A model generated the notes under the pieces. That model was not told the origin of the DNA and searched no databases. It worked only from the letters and a program-made list of their open reading frames with translations. Below, one piece after another: positions 4,832 to 63,847 of a stretch of DNA of 64,000 bases (the first letter of the stretch is position 1; the number at the start of each line of letters is the position of its first letter). Source of the DNA: Boswellia sacra (lineage: Eukaryota; Streptophyta; Magnoliopsida; Sapindales; Burseraceae); contig SNVD02013981.1 of assembly GCA_013180625.2 (NCBI GenBank), positions 1-64,000 on the forward strand, in the 5' to 3' direction. Made by a program: the position numbers and the translations under genes.

Positions 4832-6780
4832 ATGAGTGGAGGAAAACAGTCCAGTAATGATCAAACTGATGGTGGTTCAACAACTTCTCGTAGAACAAGA
4901 GGAATTTGCAAGAATGTCAAGAGAAATAGAGCTCCTAATGAAGAAAGAATTACAATTCAATTTAATGAGTACAATACGCCAGAAGAAGGGCCTATTTCAG
5001 ACAACTTTATTTCAACCATCGGTCTCGAAGCACGCAATGCAACCTCAATACTAGTAAATGATTGGAGACTCGTGGATCAAAGGGCAAAAGATAGAATATG
5101 GGAATCGGTTTTGGTATGAAAATTATCTTTATTTTTTGTTATATAAGTGTTGTTTTTTTATATAATAGTTATGCTGGAATCCATAATTCGTTTTTTTTTT
5201 TCCATTTTAAATTCCAGAACCACTACGATGTTGATCCAGTCCATAAGATTATGTCATGAAACAAGCTTCAAGGGCGTGGAGGTAGTTTAAGACTATTTTA
5301 ACTTCAGAACATGTGTTGAAATGTAGGAGTATTAAAGATGCCCTAGCAAATAAGCCAGATGAATACAATTTTATTAGCGATGAAGTTTGGGAGAAATTCG
5401 TTCGAAGCCGGTTCGCAAATGAATGGAAGGTGTTAACCGTATAAGTCTTGTTAGGTTATTTCCATTTATAGTTGATGCAATTATGACTTTTTAAATTCCT
5501 ACATTTTATGCTTCATTGTTAGTTTGAATAATGAATTAATATTATAGAAGAGATAGAGTATACCAGCCTTGTCTTCAGTTTACCTGTTTTTATTTAATCC
5601 AAATGTTGATGTTATTTAATATAATTAGATGTTTGTGCTTGAAGGAATTGAGAGGCAGACAATAGGCCAGGAGACGAGAAAATAAATATGCTCATACGAC
5701 AAGAAGGAAAGGCTACCTTCACGTGGAGAAGGAAATGGTAATTTATTTAGGCTTAAATTTTTCATTAATCAAATCTGATTTTATGGTTTCCATGGTAACT
5801 GTTTCATATTTTTTTTGGCTGTAGCGCAAAGAAACGGGGAATTATGATACAGCAATTGACCGTTCAGAGTTGTGGAAAAGAGGTAGGAAAAGGAAGACTG
5901 GTGATTACCATCCAAATGTTCTTCCTATGATTGAGAAAATTGTAAGTAAACAAATTGAACCAAAAAATTTACATTATACAAATGCTTGTTATTAGCATAT
6001 AAGTTGTGTATATAGTGACTAACTTATAATTGTTGTAGGAGGAGATCCAAAAGCAAGCAGAATCGAAAGTCGTCGACCCTACTAATAGACAAGACATTCT
6101 AGCTAGGGCATTGGGAACTGAGGAGCATAGTGGTCGAGTTAGGGGGGTGGGGAAATATGTGACACCAACTACATATTTCAGAGGTGGTTACAAAGAAAAG
6201 AGATGTATTAAGGATGTTATGAGACAGTTGGCAGAGAAAGATGACATCATAGCCCAGCTAAGAGCACAATTGAATGAAATGAAGTATGGAAACTCCAGTA
6301 ATACTATTCCAGTGCCCCAAAATAAGGGTGAGCAAGGGCCAGTGGAAGCCAAAGATGAATATGATGCAGTGGCTGAAAAACCATCAACTGCCAACACGAA
6401 TGTTAAGAAAAAATTGAAGTTAAAGGATATGGAAACTTCTTGCCCTGAAGAGGTTGAGGAGGACTTCTCATCAGCGGTAAGTAAATTATATTAAATTCAT
6501 CAGGTTTTGATTATTCAACTATTTACATGTATTATAACCTATTCTATTTACAATATTATGTTGATCAGGTAGCGTGTAATTTAGCCATTATGAGGGTTCA
6601 GATACTGTAGTTGTTGCATCTGGTTCTGCTTACGAAAAAGATGACAATAATAAGCCAACCAAGCGTGTGTCAGTTGAAGTGATTATGGATGGTGAAGCCA
6701 TTGTCCCCTGGTGTGGAGCAGATGAGCAGGGGGCTGTTATCACCGTACTTGATGTTGTAGGACAACATGTGAATTAGCCA
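4832..6780 (+). pseudogene. CACTA second ORF, transposase-24 (Ptta/En/Spm) type, decayed
   Basis: This is the accessory transposase found next to TNP2 in many plant CACTA elements. The start is set at 4832 (MSGGKQSS), just after a T-rich tract and CAG that could be an acceptor. A first exon runs to about 5113. Further exon-like blocks contain FISDEVWEKFVRSRFANEW (about 5370-5430), RRRENKYAHTTRRKGY (about 5660-5720), RKETGNYDTAIDRSELW (about 5824-5875) and ILARALGTEEHSGRVRG (about 6100-6150). A coiled-coil-like stretch, QLAEKDDIIAQLRAQLNEM, follows near 6225-6283. Stops and frame changes occur near 5255, 5308 and 5662, and TAG replaces a likely Trp codon near 6777. The block at 6570-6777 resembles a DUF8039-type segment. 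It may once have been a single gene with the protease that follows. Confidence 0.72.
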
Positions 6781-35573: not shown

Positions 35574-36352
35574 CTAACTGCTATCTGTCCAGAACTTGGC
35601 CTGAAGAGATTTCACCAAATCCACGTCCAACTAGAAGGCCCTGGCAAGGAAATCTGGGTTAATTCCAAATACTGCGTTTGCAATAGTAATGACACCGCTG
35701 CTCAAACCAGCAAAGGCAACAGCATTTGTTTTTTCAATATTGAATTGGAAGTGAATGAGACCAATGGGGAATACGAACATATCACCCTTGTTTATTACTT
35801 TGGTGAAAAGCTTGTTTTCAGGATTCGAGGTGACAAAACCAACCAATAGACTTCCCTCAAGAGCAAGGGTATCTCAGTGGCACGAGGGTGAGTGTGATGT
35901 GCGTTTTGGCCATATGGTGCTTAATCAATACGGACTGCGGATATGCCAAGAGTGTTAAGTCCTGGTGTTTGCAGTACATTAACGGCAGTTACGTTTGAAC
36001 CGACTTGATTGGCTGTGTTTCCAGGGTTTGTCACTGAAAAGAAGAAGTCCTCAGCTTTAGCAAGCTTGGGGTCCTTGCAGAACTTCCCATTCACAAACAC
36101 TTCATGCATCAAACTGAATATTAACAATCAAATTAATGATCATTGATTGTAAGTCATAACGTGACTTGCATGCGCTAGTAATACGAACTCTTATCAACAG
36201 AGGAGAAGTAGCTTCAAAAGAATACACGTGAACAGCACTGAGTGAATACCACCGTGCAAGTGGTCGTTCACGGCTACACAGAAATCCTGAAGAGGACTGG
36301 GGTCAAAAGCAGAGGCAAATGTGGGAGCCAAAGCCAAAAGAAAATCTTTCAT
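35574..36352 (-). pseudogene. Germin-like protein gene GLP2, inactivated by point changes
   Basis: This is the same two-exon cupin gene on the minus strand. Exon 1 is 36352-36250 (MKDFLLALAPTFASAFDPSP, then LQDFCVAVND), 15 nt shorter than in GLP1. Exon 2 is 36099-35574. It reads [20 protein letters not shown] and [21 protein letters not shown] stands where Tyr is usual before [15 protein letters not shown] (metal-binding box 1) is kept, then an extra base shifts the frame near 35865. Box 2 is [13 protein letters not shown]. Small in-frame deletions follow in GLSSGVIT and FGINPDFL, and TAG replaces the Gln codon that GLP1 keeps in RAFQLDV. The normal end after QAKF has become a Trp codon, so the frame runs on six residues. 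Confidence 0.9.
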
Positions 36353-39782: not shown

Positions 39783-39896
39783 ATGAAAGGTTCCCTTTTG
39801 GCTTTTGCTTTCCTAGATTTGGCTTCCTCTTTTGCCTCTGCTGAAGACCCAAGCCCTCTTCAGGACTTCTGTGTAGCTCTGAATGACCCCGTGTAT

Positions 39897-41322
39897 TGAT
39901 AGGTGTCTATTTATGTATTACTTTCATATCAATTTGTCCATGTTTCTTTGCTATATTCCTTGGTATTTTTATGGTTTTGTGTGGTTTTGATGTTTGTAGG
40001 AGTTTTGGAGCAACTTGCACAAAAATGGAGTAAAACCCTTCATTTTCACCTCTGCTAGTCAGTGATCTTCTCGGATTTAATTGTATTGATATACAATGAC
40101 CCGATGACATATTATATATCGTTGGAAAGCTCTCAAAGTCTATTTTCTAGAGAAATTTACGGTTTATAAATCCATTCAGTGTACCAAAAGTTGTAATCAA
40201 AACAGTATGAGAAGTATAGAAATGTAATTCTACAAATCACTGTAGCATGTATAATACGGAACACTGTAGCAGATTACTGTAGCAGAGTATTTAAACACAT
40301 TTTAGGGTTTTATTTTGACAACTTGAAGAGGGAAAAACGTGGGAGGAGGCTGCATTTCTGGATTTCTCTCATCCCTTGGAGTTCTTGAAGAGAAAGAAGA
40401 TTTTGAAAGAGGAGGAACTACAATTCCAAGAAGATTCATCTACAAAGAAGATTTTCAAAGAATTTGCTAAGTTCTTTCTTTCCTTTTCATTTCTGGAATT
40501 TCTCTGTATTGTATTTGTTATTCTGATTGAATATGTGTAACTAAATCTGAATTGGTTGAGGGTGATTTCAAAGCCCTTGATATGGATTTTGTGAGTTTAT
40601 TGTATAAGAAATTGTTATCCAATTCTCTAATTGAAGTTGCTTGTATTTTCCCATATCTAATGCTTATGATTCCTTGCTGATTGTATTTGGAATGGCCAAC
40701 TGAATATAATCTGGTTGTTGTCTATTGCTAGAGTAGAAATCTTGATCCGTAATTGTCTTGAATTTCTAATCCTTCGTAGCAAAATTGTGATCAGAGATTG
40801 CAATTGGAGAATACAACCTAAGTTAAATAATCCGAGCTTGTGTGTTTATTGCTTAGATCATCCTTTCTTTCTTATCGTAATGCATCCATTGAATTAAATT
40901 TAGAGAGCTTGTTCTAGGTTGTTTAATGGATAGAGATTAAATAAAGAGCCTGTTTTATTTAACAACAAAGTAAGGAAAGATTAGGATAACAGAGCTTGTT
41001 GTTATCTACGGTTGATAATTTCACTGGTGTAATTGGATGACAATTCTATAATTAATTCGCAAATCCATATCTTGTGGTAGAGAATAATCCCTTAACCAGA
41101 TTTCTTTCATTGTGTATCTCTCAATTGATTTAACTTTGTATTGTATTATTCTTCATTTGCTTTCGTATTGAGTTTAGTTAATCAATCAACAAAACCCCCC
41201 ATTTATTCTGTTTTCGCTTTCGAATAACAAATTTAATTAGAATTAATCCTCGTGGGAACGATATCTTACTCATCACTTTATTACTTGTGCGACTAGTATA
41301 CTTGCTAGTTTCAAGCGCATCA
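39897..41322 (+). repeat. Athila 5' LTR (1426 bp)
   Basis: It begins TGATAGGTGTC and ends GAGCGCATCA-like (AAGCGCATCA here). It aligns end to end with 47699-49124, which has the same length. I count four differences in the first 90 bases and fewer in most later stretches I compared. Confidence 0.92.
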
Positions 41323-41328
41323 AGTTTT

Positions 41329-41346
41329 TGGTGCCGTTGCCGGGGA
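41329..41346 (+). other. Athila primer binding site (tRNA-Asp type)
   Basis: TGGTGCCGTTGCCGGGGA lies six bases after the LTR. It differs by one base from the Athila/Tat consensus TGGCGCCGTTGCCGGGGA, which is complementary to tRNA-Asp. Confidence 0.85.
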
Positions 41347-41434
41347 TTGATTTTCTAATCGATTTGTTATTTTGTTTTCATTGTTGATTCGTATTTTTTT
41401 GTTTTTCTTTTTTGATTGCTTGTGTTTAGACGAC

Positions 41435-43453
41435 ATGGCAGTAAACTTTCATCAATTCAGTGGCGGTTTTGAGCCACAACTACCATGGAGAGTAAATGAG
41501 GTAAGCACTCCGAACGTTGAACAACAACTTTTTGAGTTAACTTCTCTTGTGGAAAACATGGCTGTAGGACATATGCAGAAATCTTATGCATGTGAGGTAT
41601 ATTCTACCATGGAGCAACCAATCGACATGTATCCAACTTTTCAAGGAGATATGGAACAAGCTAATGCCATGGATGGATTTCCAGGACAAACAAGGCAATG
41701 GTATGATCCCTTCTCTAACACTTACAATGCTGGATGGGAAGATCACCCTAATTTCAGTTACTGGAATCATCAACCAATTGTCCCAAATGCCATACCAAAT
41801 CAACTACAAGGTTTTAATCAACCTAGAGTGCAGCAACCATTTCAAATGCAACCACCACCAATGCCACAACCAGCACCACAACCAACTCTAGAAAACTCAA
41901 GTGTGTCACTCCAGGATATTGTTAATGAACTTGCCACTAACACAATGCAATTCCAGCAGGAAACTGGGGCAAGTATCCAAAACCTGGCAAATCAAATGGG
42001 ACAATTGGCCACTAGCATAAGCAAATTCGAGGGCCAAGGCTCAGAAGAATTATCTTGTCAAACGGTGATCAATCCAAGAGAGAATTCTTGTGCGATAACT
42101 TTGCAAAATGGAGAACAATTAGATGTCCTGCCAAAGAAATCACAAACTGATGAAGGAGATGACACCACTTCCACCATGAACAAAACACTGACTTCTCAGG
42201 TAAATCCTATAACTCCCATTCCTTCATATGTTTCTCCTCCACTTTTTCCCAGTAGATTTGCAAAATCGAAAAAGGAGGAACAAGAACAAGAAATCCTGGA
42301 AACTTCTCACAAAATCGAGGTAAATATACCACTTCTAGATGCTACCGAGCAAGTACCTTGTTATACAAAATGTCTCAAGGAGTTATGCACCAGCAAGAGA
42401 AAGTTAAAAGGGAATGAGAAAGTAAGTGTGGGGGAAAATGTTTCAGCTGTACTACAAAGAAAAAATCCTCCGAAATGCAATAATCCAGGTACGGTCACCA
42501 TTCCATGAACCATTGGTAAAACCAAGTTTGAAAGAGCTATGTTAGATTTAGGAGCATCTATTAATGTCATGCCATATTCTATTTATGCTTTTTTAAATCT
42601 TGGACCTTTTGCGAAAACTGGTATTACCATTCAACTTGCTGATCATTTTAATGCATATCCCAAAAGAGTCGTGGAAGATGTGCTTGTGCAGGTGAATCAA
42701 TTGGTTTTCCCAGCAAACTTCTATGTCCATGAAATAGAGAATGAGACATCTCCTAATCCAACTCCGATTCTTTTAGGGAGACCATTCTCGAAAACTGTTA
42801 GAACCAAGATTTATGTTCATGATGGCACTCTTATCATAGAGTTTGATGGCAAGGTGATATGTTTCAATATTTTTGAGGCAATGAGGTACTCTAGTGACTT
42901 ACATTCGGTTTTTGCAGTTGACGTTGTTGATTCTTTGCCACAACAATACTTTGAGTTAACTCGCAAGAATGGATTGGATGTAGCTATTAGTGAGCACATA
43001 GGGACAGAAAATTCTAAGGAATCAAGAATTTTGATACAAGTGTCTAAAAAAGTGAAGGAAGCTCTGGCAAGCTTAGATGAGACTATAGCCATAACCATAA
43101 GCAGGTATGATGTTTCGTATATTGAATTATCTTTATCTAATGAGAAACTTTTTCATTCTGTGATGAAGGCCAATACCGTAGAGCTTAAGTCACTTCGAGA
43201 TCATTTGAATCATGGATTCTTGGGTGAGAATGGTACTTTGCCAATTATAATAGAAATGGGCCTTGCACCAATACAAGAAGTGAAACTCGTCCAAGTACTT
43301 AGAGATCACAAAACGGCTATTGGGTTGACAAGTGCTCACATTCAAGGCCCAGCCATATGCGTGCACCATTTCTTGTGGAAAGAAGGATCCAAGCCCACTA
43401 GTGAAGCACATCGAATATTGGATCCTCCCATGATGGAACCAACGTCGGGCTGA
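41435..43453 (+). pseudogene. Athila gag-protease remnant
   Basis: Two blocks in different frames relative to an ordinary gag-pol. The first (41435-42508) starts MAVNFHQFSGGFE, is rich in Gln and Pro, and ends with the linker KRKLKGNEKVSVGENVSAVL. A TGA at 42506-42508 stands where Athila proteins usually have Cys (IP-stop-TIG). The second block continues through KFERAMLDLGASINVMPYSI, the aspartic protease active site (DLGAS in Athila). It then has PILLGRPF and goes on to the region just before reverse transcriptase (LRDHKTAIG), ending at 43451-43453. The N-terminal capsid part and zinc knuckle of a normal gag are absent. An upstream ATG at 41372 gives only a hydrophobic leader and was not chosen. 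Confidence 0.83.
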
Positions 43454-43897
43454 GGACGTTAAACCAAGCGCTTATTGGGAGGCAACCCAATGTTTCTGAA
43501 AAATAAATAAAAAAAAGAAAAGAAAAATAAAATAAGGTAATAATGATCAATTTTTGTGTCTCAAGGAGATTCCTTTCGTAGACCATCAAATTGCCCAGGT
43601 TTTATCTCTCTTTGCCATCTGTCTTATTTGTTTTTATATTTTTTTACTTGTTTTTGACTTTTGTTTGTTATTGTGTTGTTATCTCTTTTATGTGTCTTTA
43701 GTTTCTTTTCTGCTCTTTTCTTTTCGTTTCTTTTGTTTAATTTGATTATTTCGTACTTTGTGCTCATTTGTGCAACAGCTTGAGGAAACACCGAAACAAG
43801 AATTGAAGCCATTGCTTGAAAGTTTGAAGCGTGCATATCTTGGAGAAGAATAGACTCAAACGAATTACTGGTAATATCTTTCCTTTTCTCCTCTTCA
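43454..43897 (+). other. Athila post-pol leader
   Basis: The conserved Athila text GACGTTAAACCAAGCGC and GGGAGGCAACCC is followed by a long T-rich stretch. Frames here are low-complexity. It marks the join between the truncated pol and the accessory genes. Confidence 0.6.
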
Positions 43898-44386
43898 ATG
43901 GATGCCGATATCTTTCTGTCGAACCTTCGTAAATATTTTCCTTCACTTTCTGAAAATGTTGTGTTTAAAATTTATAAAGTACAGATGACTAGGCTTTGGG
44001 TATTGATGCTCTTAAATCTGCCTGTGGATATCCGATGGTTTATCGAAGCCAAGGTGAGATTGTCCGGTGAGCCTGACATTAATCTTGCAAAATACATACC
44101 TGGTCTAGGAAAGAGCTACTACGCCAAGAGGCGAAGAGCGAAAAGGTTACAAGTATGTTATAAATGTGCTAGATGGAATTGTAACCAGACTTGTCGTTCA
44201 TTAGGTTTTGCGTCCAGGAATAGAGAAGATAAACTTTCATTTATTAAGAATGGGTTGAGTAATGAGTCTCTGGATAATGTTTTGTTAACTCTCGAGTCAC
44301 ATTCTTGTGGACTTGTTCAGCGTGAATTGCTTAATCTATGGACACAATTTCGTGATGAATTGCAGTGTTATAGTCAGGGAATCTGA
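43898..44386 (+). CDS. Athila accessory ORF with carlavirus-like cysteine-rich nucleic-acid-binding motif
   Basis: This 162-codon frame is intact, starting MDADIFLSNLRKYF. Its middle has a hydrophobic turn LNLPVDIRWFIEAK (about residues 39-52), then GLGKSYYAKRRRAKRLQ (about 69-85), an Arg/Lys-rich patch. A Cys cluster CYKCARWNCNQTC (about 87-99) follows, with Cys spacing of 2, 4 and 3 residues. The order LPVDI, then a GxS-Y-A-RRRRA-like basic patch, then CxxC is the plan I know from the small cysteine-rich proteins of carlaviruses and relatives, which bind RNA and can affect silencing. The tail, residues 100-162, matches nothing I know. It lies inside the retroelement, between the truncated pol and the LOG copy. 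The similarity rests on a short core. A host zinc-finger fragment or an Athila-specific protein are alternatives. Confidence 0.5.
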   Translation: MDADIFLSNLRKYFPSLSENVVFKIYKVQMTRLWVLMLLNLPVDIRWFIEAKVRLSGEPDINLAKYIPGLGKSYYAKRRRAKRLQVCYKCARWNCNQTCRSLGFASRNREDKLSFIKNGLSNESLDNVLLTLESHSCGLVQRELLNLWTQFRDELQCYSQGI

Positions 44387-44682
44387 CTAAAAACGACCCT
44401 GTTTGCCAGTTTATAAGAAAACTGGATGGGAAGCAAATCCTCGACTCATAGAAGGCATTTTAGCTGTTACTAGACGTAAAACCAGAGGAAGATGTGAGCC
44501 ACAATCACAACTACTTGTATATTTGAATGTGTGTTATTGTTGTCGAATTTTATTTTTTTTTCTTGTTTCGTTTGATCTGATTATCAATGTTGTTTTTGTG
44601 TTGTTGTTATTTGTTGATTTTGTTTTTTTTAATTTCAAGTTTTCTTTTTGACAAACCATATGACTACCCTAGGGCATAAGTA
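44387..44682 (+). other. Spacer between accessory ORF and repeat array
   Basis: A short frame from 44403 (PVYKKTGWEANPRLIEGIL) gives a basic peptide and then a hydrophobic, T-rich run. It could be a second piece of accessory coding sequence, but nothing identifies it. Confidence 0.3.
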
Positions 44683-44880
44683 CACGTGGGAGACAAGTGT
44701 GGAGGTTTTGTCAACCTCCACCGAAAGTATATCTCTACTTTTCATGCTTCACGTGGGAGACAATTATAGCGGTTTTGTCAAACCCCGCCGAAAGTATATG
44801 TCCATTTTCTATGCTTCACGTGGAAGACAAGTGTGTAGGTTTTGTCAAACCCCGCCGAAAGCATATCTAATTTTTTCAAA
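44683..44880 (+). repeat. Three 67-bp tandem repeats with hairpin potential
   Basis: Units start with CACGTGG at 44683, 44750 and 44817. In the first, GTGGAGGTT and AACCTCCAC form a perfect 9-bp stem around TTGTC. In the next two the stem is imperfect (GGTTTTGTCAAACC within GC-rich ends). The 67-bp period is not a multiple of three, which argues against a coding role for the overlapping frame 44648-45001. A fourth, weaker CACCGAAA block follows at about 44921. Confidence 0.82.
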
Positions 44881-45074
44881 TCTTGGGGCGATAAATCTGC
44901 ATCGAGCAACCCCCACCGAAATTATGTCCCCATGTGTTAAATTTGAGAGTTTTATGTGTGTATATATCTATTCTCCATATTTTCAAATGTCATTATTATA
45001 ACCTGTCTTGCACTTGAAAAGCATATTACCTAACTTGCATCATTGTCTTACACAAAGTTAGAGTATTTTTAGAA

Positions 45075-45682
45075 ATGGAGAAAACACCAATTCGACGATC
45101 CCAAAATATATGTGTATTTTGTGGATCACAATTTGATAAAGATGGAGAGTTTACAACAGCAGCTCTTGATCTTGGTAGGACATTAGCTGCGAGGGGTATT
45201 CATTTGATTTATGGAGGGGATAGTCTTGGGTTAATGGGGTGTGTGTCGACAGCTGCATCCCTAGGAGGGAGCAAAGTTCTCGGCATTATTCCTAAACCAT
45301 TAGCTGTATGAGATATCGTAGGCAATACAATCGGGGAAGAGTTACAAATCTCTAGCATGCATGAGCGTGTTGCACATATGGTTGTTAAGTCTGATACATT
45401 TATAGCTTTGCCTAGTGGTTATGGTACATTAGAGGAGATATTTCAAATCACCTCTTGGGCACAGCTAAACATCCATCGGAAACCCATTGGTTTGTTAAAT
45501 GACAATAATTTTTTTGATGGTTTGTTGTCCTTTCTTGATCAAGCTGTAGAAAAAAACTTCATCTCACCGTCGGCAAGGCAAATCCTGGTTACGGCTTCAA
45601 CTGAGGGGAGTTAATTGATAAACTCCAAGAATTCGTCTATTCGCCTGATCCAACAACGGCTCGGATAGATTGGTTTGGATAA
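45075..45682 (+). pseudogene. Intronless LOG (cytokinin riboside 5'-monophosphate phosphoribohydrolase) copy
   Basis: LOG enzymes release the active cytokinin base from its nucleotide in the cytosol. The frame starts MEKTPIRRSQNICVFCGSQF and keeps the order of LOG blocks: CVFCGS, IHLIYGGDSLGLMG, VLGIIPK, MHERVAHM, FIALPSGYGTLEE, TSWAQLNIHRKPIGLLN and FISPSARQILV. The signature PGGxGTxxE reads PSGYGTLEE, and GGGS reads GGDS. Lys after MHER is Val. There is no intron in about 600 bases, whereas plant LOG genes usually have several, so this looks like a cDNA-derived copy. An in-frame TGA (45309-45311) breaks it where a basic residue is usual. A small indel near 45606 shifts the last part (LIDKLQEF, ending IDWFG, TAA 45680-45682). 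Length is about 200 codons, close to the family norm. Confidence 0.88.
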
Positions 45683-47680
45683 GGCAATAAAAGGCGTAGA
45701 CTAGATTTAACGCTCCATCTGTAATCTCTATCTATTGGTTTGCTTCGTTTTTGTTTACTTTCTTTTTAGTGTGTTTATTTGAGATTTTTCATATCATTTC
45801 TTTTGAGTTTTTTTTCAGGTTGTTTCTTTCGTCCCAGGTAATATTTTCTAATCTCGGTTTTTAGAGTGGTGGCTTAAAAAGTTCAAGTTCTCTTGAAACG
45901 CATTCTGGATCTCTTCAATCCATAATTGCTGAATAAGGAGGCAAACTTCTAAACTTTTTAGACCCATTCTAACTGACTTGTTTGTGTTTGCTGATTTGTT
46001 GGACTTTATTATTTTCTGAGTAAGTTTAGTTTTATGTAATTTCGAGTTGTTGTGTGTTTTTGTCTTTATCAGTTTCGATTTGAAAAAAAAAAAAACCATT
46101 GTGGAAAAACCTGAGAATGGCAGAATATGGGGTTTCCTTAACTCTTGAAACACATTCTCTCTAAATAAATCTGTATTTTGTTTATTTCATGTTGTTTGAA
46201 GTGTCTTGTTTCTTGTTTTATTCTTCATAATAAAGGTATATAGGCTGGAAACCTTAAGTCTGCGGGCTACTGGTCCTAAGGATTGTTGAAATATACAATC
46301 TTGACTCAGGTGTAACAACGCCACGTACCTCTTTTCTTGCATTTTGTGGGTCGATGATAAGATAATGATTGAATTAAGAATAACTCTTGGAAATGATAAA
46401 TGATGCATGGATCTGTGTGCTTGAAATGTTTATTGGTTTTCGCTTTGCTTTTGATTCCTTGCGCAACATTGATCACTGAGCTATTATCACTGAGTTATTT
46501 GTTCACTTAGAGAAAGTTTATGTAATTTAAATGTTTCTTCAGATTTCAATGAATTCTAGAACTTGTTTGATGGTCACTCGAGGCGAAATCCTAGACTGTG
46601 CAACATTGGGTAAATGATTTAGGCCATCTTTGGACCGTTTGAGCCTTAATAGCCAACCTTGACTGAAATTGATCCCTAGTTACCCCTTTGAGCCTCTGTA
46701 AGCCTTTTCTTTGTTAACTCACTAAAAGATTTCCTAACCTCAAATGAAGTTGTTCCAAACAGTTTATCCCTTACCTACGAGCATGTAGATCATTCACAAT
46801 TAAATTCTGAGCTATGTTCTGGTTTTGGGAAGTGAGAGGAGGTTGGGATGTGTTATGAGCAATGCAAGTGAGTTCTATTATGTTTGTAAAAAAAAAAAGA
46901 AAAAAAAGTCAATCTGTACTTATCGTCCACGTACTTACACATTGAGGACAATGTGTTGTTTAAGTGTGGGGGAGGGGAATTGTAATAAAAAAAAGAAAAA
47001 AAAGAAAAAAAAGAACAAAAGAAGAAGAATAAGAGATCTATACCCTTAAGTGTTCTTAAAAAGAATGAAACAACAAAGTGTGGGGGTGTAGTTTTCTTTT
47101 GTTTTTTGCAAAAAAAAAAAAAAAGATTAAGTGTTCCAAATAAGTTTGGGGGAGTAACCTGGTGAATTGAAATGAAGTTGTGTTATAGGGTTGAGCTCTA
47201 CATAGTCTTGAATGATTTATGTGTTTGTGGGTGATTTGAGCCAAATTATTATCCTTTATCATACCTTCCCCAAGCCAAACGTTAGAAGCTTAATAAAGTC
47301 CTACTTGATCCTTGGTGTTGTGCATGTCTACATTAGTGGAGAGTGACTTGAAAAGTAGGCCTATTGAGTTCATTTATACACACATCTTCAATATTAAATA
47401 TGATTCATTTTTATGCATAAACTCATCTGGGTTACAAGTGATTAGGTGAGAATTGCTCTACACACACACACTTGAGGAATTGAAGTGAAGCGAAACTAAT
47501 CTTTGAGATGAAATTCTTGATCAAGTGCATTATTTTGAAGTTTTCCTTGGGTTATAATTAAGTACAATCTTTGAGGCCTATTTGCAAGTTGAAGCATTTG
47601 TGTGTGTTTTAATTTTTCTTTGATTCTGTTTCGGTTTAGTTTTGTTTCGTATCATTTTAGTTGCTCGAGGACTAGCAAAG
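45683..47680 (+). other. Athila 3' non-coding region
   Basis: No coding domain seen. It includes the block GTATATAGGCTGGAAACCTT (about 46237) with AACAACGCCACGTACC about 80 bases on. From about 46960 come several AAGTGTGGGGG or AAGTTTGGGGG blocks (46959, 47078, 47143, 47682) between A-rich runs. Only the last, just before the LTR, sits where a polypurine tract should prime plus-strand synthesis; the others may be reserve tracts. Confidence 0.55.
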
Positions 47681-47698
47681 TCTAAGTGTGGGGGAATT

Positions 47699-49124
47699 TG
47701 ATAGGTGTCTTTTTATGTATTACTTTTATATCAATTCGTCCATGTTTCTTTGCTATATTCCTTGGTATTTTTATGTTTTTGTGTGGTTTTGATGTTTGTA
47801 GGAGTTTTGGAGCAACTTGCACAAAAATGGAGTAAAACCCTTCATTTTCACCTCTGCTAGTCAACCATCTTCTCGGATTTAATTGTATTGATATACAATG
47901 AACCCGATGACATATCATATACCGTTGAAAAGCTCTCGAAGTCTACTTTTTGGAGAAATTTACGGTTTATAAATCCATTCAGTGTACCAAAAGTTGTAAT
48001 CAAAACAGTATGAGAAGTATAGAAATGTAATTCTACAAATCACTGTAGCATGTATAATACGGAACACTGTAGCAGATTACTGTAGCAGAGTATTTAAACA
48101 CATTTTAGGGTTTTATTTTGACAACTTGAAGAGGGAAAAACGTGGGAGGAGGCTGCATTTCTGGATTTCTCTCATCCCTTGGAGTTCTTGAAGGAGAATG
48201 AAGATTTTGAAAGAGGAGGAACTACAATTCCAAGAAGATTCATCTACAAAGAAGATTTTCAAAGAATTTGCTAAGTTCTTTCTTTCCTTTTCAATCTGGA
48301 ATTTCTCTGTATTGTATTTGTTATTCTGATTGAATATGTGTAACTAAATCTGAATTGGTTGAGGGTGATTTCAAAGCCCTTGATATGGATTTTGTGAGTT
48401 GATTTGTGTAAGAAATTGTTATCCAATTCTCTAATTGAAGTTGCTTGTATTTTCCCATATCTAATGCTTATGATTGCTTGCTGATTGTATTTGGAATGGC
48501 CAACTGAATATAATCTGGTTGTTGTCATTGCTAGAGTAGAAATCTTGATCCGTAATTGTCTTGAATTTTTAATCCTTAGTAGCAAAATTGTGATCAGAGA
48601 TTGCAATTGGAGAATACAACCTAAGTTAATAATCCGAGCTTGTGTGTTTATTGCTTAGATCAACCTATTTTTCTTATCGTAATGCATCCATTGAATTAAA
48701 TTTAGAGAGCTTGTTCTAGGTTGTTTAATGGATAGAGATTAAATAAAAAGCCTGTTTTATTTAACAACAAAGTAAGGAAAGATTGGGATAACAGAGCTTG
48801 TTGTTATCTACGGTTGATAACTTCAATGCTGTAATTGGATGACAATTCTGTGATTAATTCGCAAATCCATATCTTGTGGTATAGAATAATCCCTTAACCA
48901 GATTTCTTTCATTGTGTATCTCTCAATTGATTTAACTCTGCATTGTATTATTCTTCATTTTCTTTCGTATTGAGTTTAGTTAATCAATCAACAAAACCCC
49001 CCATTTATTCTGTTTTCGCTTTCGAATAACAAATTTAATTAGAATTAATCCTCGTGGGAACGATATCTTACTCATCACTTTATTACTTGTGCGACTAGTA
49101 TACTTGCTAGTTTCGAGCGCATCA
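47699..49124 (+). repeat. Athila 3' LTR (1426 bp)
   Basis: Directly preceded by the polypurine tract AAGTGTGGGGGAATT. It begins TGATAGGTGTC and ends GAGCGCATCA. It is equal in length to the 5' LTR with scattered differences, mostly near the start. Confidence 0.92.
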
Positions 49125-49169
49125 TGCATGGTGGTAGGCACTCGGTGCTTTTTGGCGCATTCTTCTAAG

Positions 49170-49295: not shown

Positions 49296-49634
49296 GAAGA
49301 GTTGTTACTAATATTGCATGCATGTCAATTTATGACTTACAATAAACCAATAATTTGATTGTTAATCAATTTGATGCAGTGTTTGTTAATGGAAAGTTCC
49401 TCAAGGACCTCAAGCTTGCCCAAGTCGAAGATTTCTTCTTTTCAGTCAAAAACCCCAGAAACACAAACAATCTAGTTGGATCAAATGTCATAGCTGCAAA
49501 TGTGCAACAAATACCAGGACTTAACACTTTTGGTATGTCTGCAATCGTTATTAACTATGCACCATATGGCCAAAACGCACCTTACACTCACCCCTATGTC
49601 ACTGAGATATTTATAGCCCTTGGTGGGACTCTAT

Positions 49635-50864
49635 GTTGCGCACAGAGGAAGTGATACCACAAAACAACCAAATACACAACCTCAAACAATGCCAAATAAT
49701 TGAATATAATAGCAATTAAAGAGATAACCAATCAATTAAAAATACAAAATAGAGAGAACACCAAGATTTAACGAAGTTCGGTGTTGTTACCTACGTCCTC
49801 GAATATCGCTAGAAAAACCTTTCACTATCTTTAAAGAGAATTACAAACTTTTGGGTCACAATACAAATATCACAATTATTGGGTTAAACAAAAAATAAGC
49901 AAATAGTTGGGTCAAATTATAATTACCCAAACAATTGGGTAATACTACAAATACCCAAAACTAAAAGGAAAAAAAATATTACAAACTTTAAGGTCCTTAA
50001 TGAGAGCCCATTATACTATGAGATCCTATATTTGAGACCTTACAAATGTGGGGGTTGAAGAGGATTTTCAATGGGAGACATAAATGAGAAGACTTGGCTT
50101 TAATATATAAGTCCAAGCCTCTCCTACACAATGACTCCCACTCAATGTGGGATCCTTGCACACACATACAAATAGCTAAAGAGCCAAAACTCCAACAATT
50201 TTCTGCCTTGGCGAATTAGTCGATCCACAACAAGACTCTTCTTTTTTCCATATTCTCTATCAACGAACTACAACGCCTCCAAATGCGACCAATGGCACGG
50301 TCAAATTCTCACAATGTTGATCAAGTCCAAACAATGACTGAACTTGATTGCAGTCATAATCTTAGTCAACATATCTATGAGATTCTCGGTAGTCTCAATC
50401 TTCTGAAGTAAGATTCTTCCTTCATCAATGATCTCTCGCACAAAATGATACCGAACATCAATATGCTTCGTACGAACATGGAACGTTAGATTCTTTGCTA
50501 AATGGATAGCACTCTGACTGTCAGAATAAAGAGTGGTTTTTTTCTGACCAATTTTCAATTAATTCAGCAATCCCTGTAACCAAATAGCTTTTTTCACAGC
50601 CTCTGTCATTGTCATATACTTTGCCTCTATTGTAGACAAAGCCACCGTAGACTATAAAATAGACTTCCAACTCATTGGTACTCTTGCAAGAGTAAACACA
50701 TAACCGGTTGTTGACCAACATTTCTCCAAATCAGCAACATAATCATAATCAATATAACCAATAGCACACTGATCACGCATATCATCCTTCTCAAAGACTA
50801 AGCTAACATCTACAGTTTTTAGCAAATACCGTAAAATCCATTTCACTGCTTGTCAATGTCCTTT
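49635..50864 (-). mobile_element. Truncated Ty1/copia element in GLP3 exon 2
   Basis: The + strand first shows one LTR in reverse (about 49635-50197; read on the minus strand it starts TGTTGGAGTTTTGG). Next comes the C-terminal part of pol on the minus strand, about 50290-50864. It contains the copia RNase H text AVKWILRYLLKTVDVSLVFE, MSWKSIL, TTLYSDSQSAIHLAKN and HIDVRYHFVREII. Stops occur where MSWKSIL should continue with Gln and in LLN-stop-LKIG, so it is dead. The element's remaining 5' part is absent because a CACTA terminus begins at 50865. Confidence 0.83.
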
Positions 50865-58105: not shown

Positions 58106-58898
58106 CAATTGACAGTATATAGCAAACTAGCCCACTAAATAACAACATAAACCAACCCAACAACTTGTAAACTGATAGGGTTTTCATTATCCCAAATTAA
58201 TATGTTGCCTTCTAGGTGGGCATTGTAGTTACCACAAACCAATAGAGCCCAAACAAGAAGGTGCCACAAGTTATTTCACATAAAGTATGGGTCTCGATTC
58301 TATGCTTTGTTATAAATATTATGTTTTCTTATGTTCGTTGAAAAGTTTATTAACATGGTTATATTGTCATTCATGCATATAAGCTTAGATCCCGTTCAAG
58401 AATTATTATTTGACATATATTTTTCTTCATTTTCATCCAAAGATGACAACAAAGAGTGCATGTCTAGTAATGATTCTTGAATTGTCCAGACTCGGACAAT
58501 TCGAGCATGCATAAGTTTGTATTGTAAATTAGTTGGTCATGATTTTTTCCATCTTATCAGAAAATTTGGTTACATTTCCTCATGTTCTCTCAGTACATAA
58601 TAGATGATTGTCTATTTTGTGTGGATTTTCGAACATCGAAATGACACATGAATTCAATCATCTATATCTATGTGTACTTGGAGAACTATAGGGAAATGCT
58701 GCCGAATTTTCTTTAGAGATGGAGCAACTTGTGACTACTACTTTATAGTACAAACTTATGCATTCTTGAATGGGATAGGACCACCAACCTTTTAGATAAA
58801 TGTTTGCAACTAGGTTTCATATTATATTTAGTCACTTGTGCATGAATAAATTTGTATTGATGTAAATATTGTTGTTATTACTTTTAAGGAAAATTCTC
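58106..58898 (+). other. Leader region of the second TNP2 gene
   Basis: No gene seen. AT-rich sequence between the tandem array and the transposase start. Confidence 0.45.
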
Positions 58899-61800
58899 AT
58901 GGATAAGAGTTGGATTGATTTACCAAATCGATGTTGTCGAGCATATTTCATTGGGGTGGAGGGATTTCTAAATTTTGCCTTTGGCAATTTGGTGAATGAT
59001 AATAGAATATTATGTTCATGTAAGAAATGTCACAATCGATATCTTATGGATAGATACACAGCTAGGGAGCATTTAATATGTAATGGGTTTTTAAGAACAT
59101 ACAAGAGGTGGACCTTACATGGTGAACAATATACAACTATAGAGTTTGACCAACCTAACCAACATTTTGAGGTTGTTTGTGATTCTATAAGGGGTGATGA
59201 TATGGTTGGAATGATACATGAGGCCATGGGAATTCCGAATAATGATTTAGGTGAAGGTAGTAGTTGCCCGGTAGATAGTGAAACTGAAACATATCTTAAG
59301 CTACTTGAACAAGAAGAGTGTCCCTTGTATCCGAGTTGTGAATATTTTACCTCCCTATCATTTACTGTTCAACTTTTGCAACTGAAGATGTTACACGGAT
59401 GGACCGACAAATCAGTGACAAAGTTACTAGAACTTTTGAAGAAGGCCTTTCCTGATTAAGTCAAAATTCCTTCTTCATATTATGAAGCACAAAAGATAAC
59501 TACTGACTTAGGTTTTATGTACATAACTTGGGATGCTTGTCCTAACAATTGCATGTTGTTTAGAGACTAGTTAGCAAATTTGGATAGATGTTGCATATGC
59601 CAAATGTCTCGTTATAAAAACTTTGATGAGATGAATGATGCATCAAATTCCCATGGGAAGATAGCTGCAAAGCAAGTTAGGTATTTTCCATTAAGTTCTA
59701 GGTTAAAAAGATTATTCATGTCCTCAAAAACTGCTTCTCTTATGTGTTGGCATGCAGAACATCGCATTAAAGACGGTGTTCTTAGGCATCCGGCTGATAG
59801 TCTTTGTTGGAGAACTTTCGATGAAAGAAATCCGGAGTTTGCTGCTAATTGTCGTAACATGAGACTTGGCTTGGTGACACATCCGAAAAAGGATTGTCTC
59901 CCAAGTATAGGAGTGCCGAAGTAATAAACCCGGTGAGTCTGGCGTCGATCCACGAGGAAGAGAATTTTTAGCGCTACAAACTATAAGGAAGCAAATATGA
60001 TATGGATGATTCAAAGATATGACAAGATAATATCAACAATGGATGAGAATAATTAAAATGCGCAAGAAATTAACACAATAATAATGAGAGCTAAGGTTAG
60101 GGGATCCGCCCTTGATATTTCAAATAAGGATAAACAACCCGTTTTAGTTATATGAATTATATTTGCTTCGTTACCAATATTTATACCACTTCTTGTAAAT
60201 GGGTTCAAGCATCCAATGTGCCAATCACCATATGTCTACAACAAATCAAGGTTCCTAACTAGATTCGTGTCGGTAAGGAAGAACCATACATCATCTAGAA
60301 AGGATCCAAGCATTTGATGTGCCAAGGATTGTCGACAATGGATCAAGACCTCCACTTTACGAGTGGTGTCAAGATTGATTAAGAAAATAAATATAAATCA
60401 TATAAAATAAACAACACAATATTGTGACAATTAAGCACATATCAAAGGGTTAGAGAATCCTTACTCTCATATCAAAGGTTTCACCCTTTCACCTTAGCAA
60501 GAGAGAAATAAGAAAGACATTATAAGAGAAAGAAAAGAAATTGCAAGAAAAAGAAGATTTATTAATAGCATAAACATACAAGAGACAAACACAATACAAG
60601 ATCCCAGCAAGGCCAAGATGATCCAGCCAAGGCCAAGATACCCTAATGGGTCACAAGTCACCTCTATTTATAGATACATTTAGGGGCAAACTTGTCAAAT
60701 TACAAAGGAATAATTGTCAAATATTAGATGCACCAACTTTGACAATTGGGGTAATTAGGTGAACCGACTTTGACCACCAATTTTGACCTTGAATTATTAT
60801 GAATTTTAATCATATGTCTTCATGAAAGTCGTATATATTTCTCTCAGCTTTCTATAACATCTTGATTCATATGATTTGGATACGTATTCTGAGAGATATG
60901 ATCAAAATACTGAGGTATGGTCAGGCTAGGTCGAAACTACAGATGGGTTCACTTCAAGCCCATTTTTGGTCCACTAAGAGCCCGAATTTGATGATACTTG
61001 TGAAATGCAATCTTGTAGATAATTTAATCAGCTTTCCAAAACATTAATATTTGCACCATTCTAAGCTATAAATAGAAAGTTATGCCCATTTTACCAAACC
61101 TGTAACAAAACCAAAATTAAGAGAAACTTAATTCCAAAGATGCAAAGACTACAAACATGCTTAAGTTGAGGAATTTAATGACACTATTAATGTAATATGA
61201 TGAACTAAGCTCTTATTAAACATACATATTTAGGTGTTCATCACTTGGCAGTTGATGGATTTAATCCTTTTAGGACTATGTCTATAGCCCATAGTACATG
61301 GCCTATTATGTTAATGTCGTACAACTTGCCTCCTTGGCTATGTATGAAAGAAAGTTTTTTCATATTGTCAGTACTCATTGATGGTCCCAAAGGTCCTGGG
61401 AATAAAATAGATATCTATATGCAACCATTGATTGAGGAATTGAAAGAATTATGGAGTGAAGGTGTTCTAACCTATGATGCATCGTGTCAACAAATGTTCA
61501 AGCTACATGCGGCATTGTTGTGGACTATCAATGATTTCCGGCATATGCGAATCTATCGGGCTGGAGTACGAAAGGGGAGAAAGCATGTCTTTGTTGTTTA
61601 GGAAATACGGTCTCTAAATGGTTATCTCATAGTAAGAAATTTTGTTATATGGGTCATCGGCGATATTTACCTACTACTCATACATTTCGAAAGGATAGGA
61701 TATCCTTCAATGGTAGAGCCGATATGGGACCTGCTCCATCTCGGTTATCTGGTTTTGATATAAAACAACAAGTACAAGATACACTAACTGAAATATAAGA

Positions 61801-63847
61801 TAGAAGATCTTCAACGAAGAATGAATAATCCCCAAAATCATGCATACATTTGGAAGAAGAAAAGTATTTTCTTTAAACTACCATATTGGGAGCATAACTT
61901 GATTAGACATAACCTTGATGTCATGCATATTGAGAAGAATGTCTCTGATAATGTACTATGGACATTGTTCGGGGATTGTAGGAGATCAAAAGATAATTTG
62001 AAAGCTCGCTATGATTTAAGGGATATGAAAATTAGAAAAGCATTGCATCCTCAAGAATGGGGGGCTAACAAATTATATCTACCTCCTGCATGTTTCTCAA
62101 TGACCAAAGAAAATAAAGACGTCTTTCTTAGGGTGTTGAAAAAGGTGAAGTTACCATATGGTTATGTATCAAATATCTCTCGTCGTGTTCACATGAAAGA
62201 GCGAAGCATTTCAGGCTTGAAGAGTCATGACAATCATATACTGCTGCAGCAACTGCTTCCTCTTGCTGCTCGAAGGGCATTACCGAAAAATTTTGCTGCC
62301 ACTTTGATTGAGTTGGCTAACTTTTTTAAGCAATTATGCTCAAAAGTGAACACTAAAGAAGATTTAAATAATATTCAAGATAGAGTGGTGCTTACATTAT
62401 GTCATCTTGAGAAAATATTCCCACCTTCATTCTTTGATATTATAGAGCATTTGCCTGTTCATCTTGATGAGGAGGCATCATTAGCGGGACCAGTTCAATT
62501 TAGATGGATGTATCCAATTGAGAGGTACTATGAACTACCATGTTAATGTCTTTTAGTTTTCATAAATTCTAGATGAATTGATTGATAGTACTTATAAATT
62601 TCATGGGGTTATCTAGGTATTTACTAACTCTGAAGAGATATGTGCGTAATCGTGCACATCCTAAGGCTTCTATTGCTAAAGGATACCTAATGGATGAGTG
62701 CACAAACTTTTGTTCAAGATATCTTGATGAAGTGGAAACCAAACTCAATTGAGGACCTCGGAACAAAGATGGTACCTCTGATGAAGGAGAGCAATTCGAA
62801 CTTGATCATATCTCTTGGGTTCAAGCACATAGATATGTGCTAGTTAATACAACTTCTATTGATCCATTTCGAGAGTAAGATACGCATAATTTTCCTTCGT
62901 TGCCTTAGTTCCTTTTGCTATACAACTAAGTTAAGGTACTTTTTATCTCTTTTTGATATCTTCCAATGTCTTCTCGCATAGAAAGCATCTTAATGAAATT
63001 CGTAATGAAATGCCACGTTCTTCTATTCATGAAATTCAAAAAGAGCATAACAGAAAATTCCACGAGTGGTTTCAAAATCATGTAAGTGTCAGAAATTTAG
63101 TTAACATTTTGTTGTTATAGAGATTTTTGTTGCTAACTATATGTGTTTCCATAGGTTCACTCATTGCAAGAGACCTCAAATGTATCATTGTCTGAGGAAA
63201 TCATTCATTTAGCTAATGGCCCTAAATGGGGTGCACGTAGCTATAAATCTTATGTTGTTAACGGCTTCAAATTTCATACCAAGGATGCAGATAAACACAA
63301 AAGCACGTAACAATCTGGTGTTATTTTGAAGGCCATACCATGAGTTATGCTAGTGCACGAGATCAAAACCCTCTTTCCGGTAGTGTAACATTTCTTGGAG
63401 TGTTAACCGATATAATTCAAATTCGATATGTCAATGACATGACTTTTATCTTGTTCAAGTGTAATTGGGTTGATAATCGGACTGGAAAGAAGTGTGATGA
63501 GTTCGACTTCACAATGGTTAATTTTAATCATCTGTTGTACAAAGATAACAGTATTGATGATGAACCTTTCATTTTGGCGAAGCAAGTTTGCTACATCCAA
63601 GATCCGATAGATGAAGATTGGCATGTTGTCCTGAAAATGTCAACAAGAGACACATTTGATCTTACGTCCAAAAATTCATCTATTGTGAACATGGTGCCTC
63701 AAGTTGAGTTATATACACAGCAAGAACTAGATGAAAGGGGTTATTTTCGTGAGGAAGATGTTCAATGGGTTAGACAAGGAGTTGAGGGGAACAACAATGA
63801 TCATCAATCGAGAAGACAATGATGATGATATGGATGATGTTGATTGA
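58899..63847 (+). pseudogene. Second CACTA TNP2-type transposase, split by a solo LTR
   Basis: Same domain order as the first TNP2 gene but clearly a different lineage. ATG at 58899 (MDKSWIDLPNRC) opens the transposase-associated domain, with CKKCHNRY. The core continues with ECPLYPSCEYF and SSKTASLMCWHAEHR. It is interrupted at 59875-61243 by an LTR and resumes AVDGFNPF and YNLPPWLCM. DUF4218 contains FPPSFFDIIEHLPVHL and FRWMYPIERY. DUF4216 contains FKCNWVDNR. Stops lie at 59457-59459 and near 59568 and 61795, with more near 62750 and 63308. A base is missing near 61543 and an extra one sits near 63790. Introns are visible at about 62525-62617, 62876-62980 and 63081-63153. The last stop is at 63845-63847. 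No ORF2 or protease is seen before the window ends. Confidence 0.87.
59875..61243 (-). mobile_element. Gypsy-type solo LTR inside the second TNP2 gene (1369 bp)
   Basis: The insert begins TGACACATCC and ends GTTCATCA. It is flanked by a perfect 5-bp duplication CTTGG (59870-59874 and 61244-61248). Taking it out brings RNMRLGL next to AVDGFNPF in frame, the normal TNP2 order. Read on the minus strand it starts TGATGAACACC and near its end has CTTCCTCGTGGATCGACGCC, like the U5 part of Athila/Tat LTRs (the Athila LTRs here have CCTCGTGGGAACGATATC). No internal region or coding capacity remains. Confidence 0.83.

Follow-up and report, generated by a model that had tools for sequence, protein, structure and literature searches.

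Plant transposable elements are repressed by small-RNA silencing and need to enter the cells that form gametes, and at least one accessory protein encoded by a transposon, VANC of the VANDAL elements, acts against silencing. Extra open reading frames are also common in plant LTR elements, mostly without a known role. The account of additional domains in PMC9289625 lists, for Citrus sinensis, C. clementina and Populus trichocarpa, Gypsy elements that contain a YgdH (LONELY GUY, LOG) domain and credits this to Steinbauerova et al. 2011, and VANDAL aORFs are mentioned in a passage of PMC11728184. On the viral side, a section of PMC12172455 describes cysteine-rich proteins (CRPs) as RNA-silencing suppressors, and one of them, p12 of chrysanthemum virus B, as a transcription factor that induces hyperplasia.

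Here, we analyzed a stretch of 64,000 nucleotides of Boswellia sacra DNA (the window), in which an earlier note had reported a LOG-like gene carried by an Athila retrotransposon. The copy in the window is almost certainly a dead, pol-deleted member of a high-copy LTR family that carries a CRP-LOG module between pol and the 3' LTR. The earlier note knew of no Athila family described with a LOG cargo; Citrus and Populus Gypsy elements with a LOG-domain cargo are already in print, as that part of PMC9289625 relates.

Anatomy of the element and its insertion site

The element spans positions 39897 to 49124 on the plus strand. Its 5' LTR (TGATAGGTG...GCGCATCA, 39897..41322) and 3' LTR (47699..49124), both on the plus strand and 1,426 bp long, differ by 36 mismatches over 1,423 aligned columns (K2P 0.026), which at rates that we take to be 1.3e-8 and 7e-9 corresponds to about 1.0 and 1.8 million years. 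The left target site duplication, TGTAT (39892..39896, given without strand), and its right partner, TGCAT (49125-49129), are identical at 4 of 5 bases with one mismatch. A primer-binding site (PBS), TGGTGCCGTTGCCGGGGA, is located at 41329..41346 (+), and a polypurine tract, GTGGGGGAATT, at 47688..47698 (+), directly before the 3' LTR. The PBS, present as the variant TGGCGCCGTTGCCGGGGA in three other copies (L042, L044 and L045), is presumably of the tRNA-Asp type. With two LTRs, a target site duplication, a PBS and a polypurine tract, the window element has the defining parts of an LTR retrotransposon.

Between the LTRs, a gag remnant (41435..42508, +), the frame of which is open in the window copy, is followed by the protease (PR) and the start of the reverse transcriptase (RT), fused to the last pol codons by an internal deletion (42539..43453, +; junction at approximately 43438-43448). 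RT, RNase H and integrase (INT) are missing from the window copy, and neither its gag remnant nor its protease/RT-start piece had Pfam matches. The relative L049 gave Retrotrans_gag as well as Asp_protease_2, the latter at 2.1e-4 and 22.3 bits, slightly under the Pfam cut-off of 24.3. The Ty3/gypsy order gag-PR-RT-RNase H-INT was found in two relatives, L049 and L050. The INT frames of both matched rve in Pfam, with Integrase_H2C2 under its cut-off in L049, and neither gave a chromodomain match at E<=0.001. By its PBS and gag-pol motifs, the family looks like an Athila-type one, a name that we presume from the PBS and from gag and pol/PR motifs.

Downstream of the deletion lie the CRP gene, a 67-bp tandem repeat of 2.8 copies (44683..44868, +) and the LOG gene. 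The repeat stretch had overlapping repeat matches in all 16 ten-kb copies that were fetched. Pyrimidine-rich runs ending in AG, seen by eye at 43660-43780 and 44960-45074, precede CRP and LOG, respectively, and could be candidate splice acceptors of subgenomic messages. No gene was recognized on inspection in the approximately 2 kb of the element besides the LTRs, gag, protease, CRP, repeat and LOG, and an Rfam search of the whole window at gathering thresholds gave no matches.

The element interrupts a host gene, which we take to be germin-like. The gene start, 38 codons resembling a signal peptide (39783..39896, +), had no Pfam match as a piece alone, and a cupin exon beyond the element (49355..49654, +) matched Cupin_1 at 4.3e-14. 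A further Cupin_1 (germin-like) fragment lies nearby on the minus strand (35921-36127), so that a gene cluster is possible. Elsewhere in the window, Pfam identified Transposase_21, Transpos_assoc and DUF4218 at 1262-3832 and DUF4218 again at 61821-62546; the stretch at 58869-59459 resembles these transposase pieces by eye, and both regions (1262-3832 and 58869-62546) are presumably of the CACTA type.

The CRP and LOG genes in the host and in other plants

The first of the two cargo genes is a homolog of the carlavirus-type cysteine-rich nucleic-acid-binding proteins (43898..44451, +), identified by Pfam and tblastn. Its open reading frame runs from 43898 to 44386 and is followed by a 1-nt loss, after which tblastn placed the C-terminal 23 aligned residues in another frame. 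The open reading frame matched Viral_NABP (4e-10, 40.5 bits against a cut-off of 23) and Carla_C4 (1.8e-5, 25.1 bits against 20.9), carries a basic motif and a C4 finger, and shows 67% identity to the plant protein P0001. Among 44 aligned CRPs, Viral_NABP was matched by 38 and Carla_C4 by 33. A profile search retrieved 662 relatives at E<=0.01; the 120 listed include clusters from Populus x canadensis (36 sequences), Xanthoceras (47), Acer (15) and Orobanche gracilis (109). Of the 112 listed members that are 170 aa or longer, 70 measure exactly 182 aa and 95 keep the C4 spacing. The relatives P0022, P0233, P0236, P0237 and P0245 are hypothetical proteins on Orobanche contigs, where one cluster numbers 109 sequences. 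Going by these matches, CRP genes of the family extend to asterids. A PDB search with the CRP gave no matches, its structure model was poor (pLDDT 60), and two scans of viral contigs confirmed no CRP relatives.

The second cargo gene is the intronless LOG-like gene (45075..45724, +). From the ATG at 45075, the frame aligns with the unbroken relative P0028 over 183 residues at 72% identity. Homology to unbroken relatives continues to 45721 with no intron, and the family stop is at 45722-45724. The earlier note had ended the frame at 45682, which proved to be the end of a premature TAA (45680-45682); a second LOG piece in another frame (45608-45721) holds the conserved C-terminus, and its top PDB sequence match is Arabidopsis At2g37210. 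Decay is also heavier than the single TGA and single indel that had been described: there are three lesions, the TGA at 45309-45311, a 1-nt loss near 45605 and the TAA, and two motif glycines are altered; at the PGGxGTxxE motif, the window copy reads PSG. The two pieces matched LDcluster4 (3.8e-8) and Lysine_decarbox (4.1e-27), and these broken pieces scored 40 and 55.9 bits against a cut-off of 300 for the NCBIfam equivalog CtkRMPhLog. A chance frame was rejected, given the Pfam and PDB matches and the tblastn alignment to relatives.

Of 53 family copies, 43 retain PGGYGTLEE and 49 retain MHER; we take these to represent the PGGxGTxxE motif and the active-site arginine of LOG. A model of the natural copy L004 reached a pLDDT of 84.9, with At2g37210 (2a33) as its top PDB match (E 7e-23), and its fold matches plant and bacterial LOGs. 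The element LOG shows both the Lysine_decarbox domain and the fold of the enzyme. With At2g37210 as the best match of the L004 model, and with the arginine and GTLEE retained by most of the 53 copies, the simplest prediction is that the element LOG would release cytokinin. Beside the active-site arginine, the host copies read MHERIAHM where Arabidopsis has MHQRKAEM; none of the 51 of 53 copies displayed has the lysine, which is kept in 13 of the 120 listed LOG matches, and its replacement in the host copies makes a changed substrate or activity possible.

An exon search in the host listed 150 places. Five places were native-type, with 75-94% identity to the Arabidopsis query in matches limited to residues 9-49 and a TAG within four of the five matches; the other 145 were element-type, with contiguous matches of 56-63% identity. 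At the one native-type place that was read (L055), the exon closes with ..TTGGG, and the next bases are GTATGT and then a stretch reaching CAG, an intron exactly where the element LOG continues. Because the native exon stops at an intron that the element LOG lacks, the LOG came through RNA, as the earlier note had surmised when it described the gene as intronless and captured as RNA. The element LOG has diverged far from native LOGs. In a tree built from 42 of the 120 listed matches, one host copy and two cellular LOGs (Arabidopsis LOG3 and LOG8), the element-type LOGs are separate from LOG3 and LOG8, and the listed Populus LOGs share a group of 34 rows with the host copy.

In the 638.6-Mb host assembly, words of 26 bases, with at most 2 mismatches allowed, were found at 4,934 places for CRP and 5,000 for LOG, with none for the reversed controls. 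Of 29 CRP-selected loci, 28 have LOG downstream of CRP and the other is truncated; CRP lies upstream of LOG in 22 of 23 LOG-selected loci. Among the exact LOG words listed up to contig C245, 48 of 83 are preceded on their own strand, at a distance of 0.9-1.6 kb, by an exact CRP word, a lower bound, as exact words only were counted and mismatched places lie outside the listed part. Three of the ten-kb copies (L039, L044 and L046) have an extra LOG copy or piece without an adjoining CRP. The pol-deletion junction of the window is common to 8 of the 16 ten-kb copies; two others, L049 and L050, have RT (RVT_1), RNase H and the integrase core between the protease and CRP, all broken by stops and shifts, and the remaining six are nested, truncated, deleted otherwise or not classed. 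L046 (G000:C3764) shows at 5440-6378 a different internal deletion that fuses gag straight to CRP, a shortened form that has CRP and LOG. LTR divergence was 0.016-0.029 in five other copies (352-800 bp compared) and 0.15 in a sixth, L039, which is a nested locus and probably holds no true pair. Of 53 aligned copies, 21 have an unbroken LOG and 30 a broken one; for CRP, the corresponding figures are 31 and 16 of 49, in sets picked partly by similarity in the very gene counted.

These results bear on several statements of the earlier note. Its LOG-like frame is real and does lie in a bounded LTR element, with two 1,426-bp LTRs, PBS, purine tract and a target site duplication identical at 4 of 5 bases. 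The layout that it gave, from protease remnant through LOG to 3' LTR, holds as to the place of LOG, and it missed both the CRP at 43898-44451 and the pol deletion. The note had proposed searching for other copies with LOG before the 3' LTR, and these abound, with the LOG word at 5,000 places and the CRP-LOG order in 28 of 29 loci. It had also named, as evidence against its reading, a LOG that had inserted separately and later; such an insertion was rejected, since LOG occupies the same place in other copies. The capture is not a fresh one private to this element, as had been implied, given related LOGs in Reevesia, Diplodiscus, Xanthoceras and Populus.

In each of these four genera, several loci with element-type LOGs were found among the matches listed. 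Orobanche, Acer and Rhamnella appear only among the 120 listed CRP matches, and Reevesia, Diplodiscus, Parasponia and Melia only among the 120 listed LOG matches. Thus, the CRP-LOG pair may not be universal, as Reevesia and Diplodiscus have LOG loci without CRP among the matches listed. A contig size of 8,723 nt is common to the CRP match P0001 and the LOG match P0028, and one of 4,511 nt to P0011 and P0104. Equal sizes and overlapping sources suggest that each pair shares one contig and that CRP-LOG pairs occur elsewhere. The chance of two such coincidences is 1.5e-4 at sizes of at least 4,000 nt, a cut-off picked after the matches had been seen, and about 9% above 1,500 nt; LOG/CRP size matches below 1,500 nt (905 and 1018) were left out of the evidence.

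Selection on the two cargo genes

A comparison of the dN/dS type across element-borne copies, which the earlier note had suggested, was informative: shared variants of LOG gave an omega-like value of 0.18. Singletons were taken as mostly post-insertion variants and shared variants as inherited through active elements. As a guard against bias, LOG was tested in CRP-selected copies and CRP in LOG-selected copies. Codon types 2-3 bases from the commonest were dropped (in the two main sets, 24 LOG and 7 CRP types), as were gapped codons, matches covering less than 60% of a gene (less than 70% for gag and PR) and L001 and L009, which duplicate the window. The window copy was counted only in the set of all copies, the 11-copy set and its 9-copy subset.

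For LOG (n=27), the singletons comprised 94 nonsynonymous (N) and 31 synonymous (S) changes (94.1 and 30.9 expected), whereas the shared variants comprised 21 N and 45 S (47.3 and 18.7 expected; p 2e-11). For CRP (n=19), singletons were 63 N and 28 S (68.0 and 23.0 expected), whereas shared variants were 5 N and 23 S (19.8 and 8.2 expected; p 1e-8). The omega-like value of LOG thus rises from 0.18 for shared variants (bootstrap 95% interval, 0.10-0.30) to 1.00 for private ones (0.68-1.49), and that of CRP from 0.09 (0.02-0.19) to 0.76 (0.48-1.19). Wrong-frame controls gave values of at least 0.93 and no deficit, and a noncoding stretch in 15 copies gave 0.75-1.13 for shared variants. CpG decay as the source of the shared-variant signal was rejected, the values without CpG being 0.20 and 0.09.

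In the 11 copies with gag and PR, two of which have pol and for which the LOG side came from LOG-selected loci, the shared values were 0.12 for LOG and 0.13 for CRP against 0.59 for gag and 0.71 for PR (gag+PR versus CRP+LOG, Fisher p 1.2e-7). In the nine of these copies without pol, the shared value was 0.09 for CRP and for LOG. Weak constraint is also present in gag and PR. In the 11-copy set, the singletons of the two cargo genes fell under neutral (0.44 and 0.57), CRP singletons over all 49 copies showed mild constraint (0.67, p 0.026), and LOG variants present in just 2-3 copies were not significant. Overall, CRP and LOG are under strong purifying selection in the lineages that leave copies, with private variants near neutral, and passive cargo was rejected on the shared-variant deficit in both genes. 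We are highly confident that both cargo genes have a selected function.

A proposed role for the module, its rivals and the known systems

Most likely, the element-borne module consists of a CRP like a silencing suppressor or transcription factor and a cytokinin-activating enzyme, a biochemistry that we infer. The element would express both proteins, and these would help it to leave copies. The CRP would work like its viral homologs, as a nucleic-acid-binding silencing suppressor, a transcription factor or both. The LOG would free active cytokinin from its nucleotide, moving the expressing cell toward division or a meristem fate and so giving the element better odds of entering the germ line. 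As both escape from silencing and entry into gamete-forming cells are needed, a suppressor or transcription factor together with a cytokinin enzyme would serve both. Finally, pol-deleted copies would depend on full copies for RT, integrase and probably gag, and would retain CRP and LOG because these act on the producing cell or RNA. We lean slightly toward this explanation as a whole, a pol-deleted Athila-type copy with a CRP-LOG accessory module that takes all these steps. The specific actions proposed for the CRP and the LOG, taken together, are tentative, and the borrowing by pol-deleted copies is somewhat doubtful. A bolder version, in which a flexivirus-type suppressor or transcription factor and a cytokinin enzyme form a virus-like module of host manipulation that renders the host lineage permissive and proliferative, the plant counterpart of an oncogene-bearing retrovirus, and in which a benefit local to the producing cell or RNA keeps both genes under strong selection in pol-deleted derivatives as gag and protease drift, seems unlikely.

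The two genes might serve the element in another way: the CRP would be an RNA chaperone of a packaging or nucleocapsid-like kind, and the LOG a nucleotide hydrolase with a non-cytokinin substrate, both needed for replication and without effect on host growth. The basic motif and C4 finger of the CRP would fit such a role, the residue next to the active-site arginine sets the LOG apart from its Arabidopsis counterparts, and selection reveals a need, not which need. We nevertheless consider this role quite unlikely, because PGGYGTLEE (43/53) and MHER (49/53) are kept on a fold like that of plant and bacterial LOGs, and viral CRPs are known, from that section of PMC12172455, as silencing suppressors and in one case as a transcription factor. 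The viral likeness of the CRP could also be read in reverse, with an old plant or retrotransposon protein acquired by flexiviruses and no viral origin implied. The 662 CRP members at E<=0.01 and the listed plant clusters of 36, 47, 15 and 109 sequences would agree with this direction, which we hold to be somewhat unlikely, as both of the matching Pfam models bear viral protein names.

Plant LTR elements with captured gene pieces are known, and LOG and CRP could be chance captures, copied merely by residing in a successful element. The breaks in LOG (30 of 53 copies) and in CRP (16 of 49) would suit such passengers; however, the shared values of 0.18 and 0.09 against private values of 1.00 and 0.76, wrong frames without a deficit and noncoding values of 0.75-1.13 make them very improbable. 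Just as improbable is domestication, in which the plant uses some LOG copies and selection acts on the host. Many of 150 listed LOG places in the host have long open frames (232-235 aa), as it would predict, but similar copies number in the thousands, the constraint extends over many insertions, and CRP is constrained too. Our preferred reading, an accessory module that serves the element, provides two recognizable selected proteins, a LOG with a biochemical prediction and a CRP with a viral precedent. Retrotransposon escape from silencing and entry into dividing cells thereby become testable, the LOG counts of plant annotations may be inflated by elements, and the question of gene traffic between RNA viruses and retrotransposons is raised.

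A LOG cargo in Gypsy elements is already published, and the CRP-LOG pair is undescribed as far as we searched. Among titles and abstracts, with most subscription papers outside this scope, no report of a flexivirus CRP or a CRP-LOG pair in a retrotransposon was found, and the passages of PMC11963269 and PMC7145672 examined made no mention of LOG or CRP. The Citrus and Populus elements are alike in having a LOG-type additional domain in plant Ty3/gypsy, and their account in that part of PMC9289625 is without a CRP, a pol-deleted derivative, a selection test or a gene order. The giant Gypsy of Phalaenopsis, as related in the same part, is alike in having kept an extra enzyme gene, an AlkB m6A demethylase, as a proposed counter to host control, and differs in the enzyme and in its single cargo gene. 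Extra open reading frames between pol and the 3' LTR also occur in Athila elements that have env-like or other 3' frames; the sections of PMC7264820 and PMC11728184 concerned describe them as env-like, as PF03078-type, as having a transposase or transmembrane domain, or as lacking known similarity, and leave LOG and viral CRPs unmentioned. VANC of VANDAL resembles the cargo as a transposon accessory protein, unlike it is an unrelated protein of a DNA transposon, and anti-silencing is only putative for the window element. As judged through the Pfam models and a section of PMC12172455, the element CRP shares Viral_NABP, Carla_C4, the basic motif and the C4 finger with the carlavirus and flexivirus CRPs (NABPs); unlike them, it is chromosomal, approximately 182-184 aa long and carried within an LTR element in thousands of copies.
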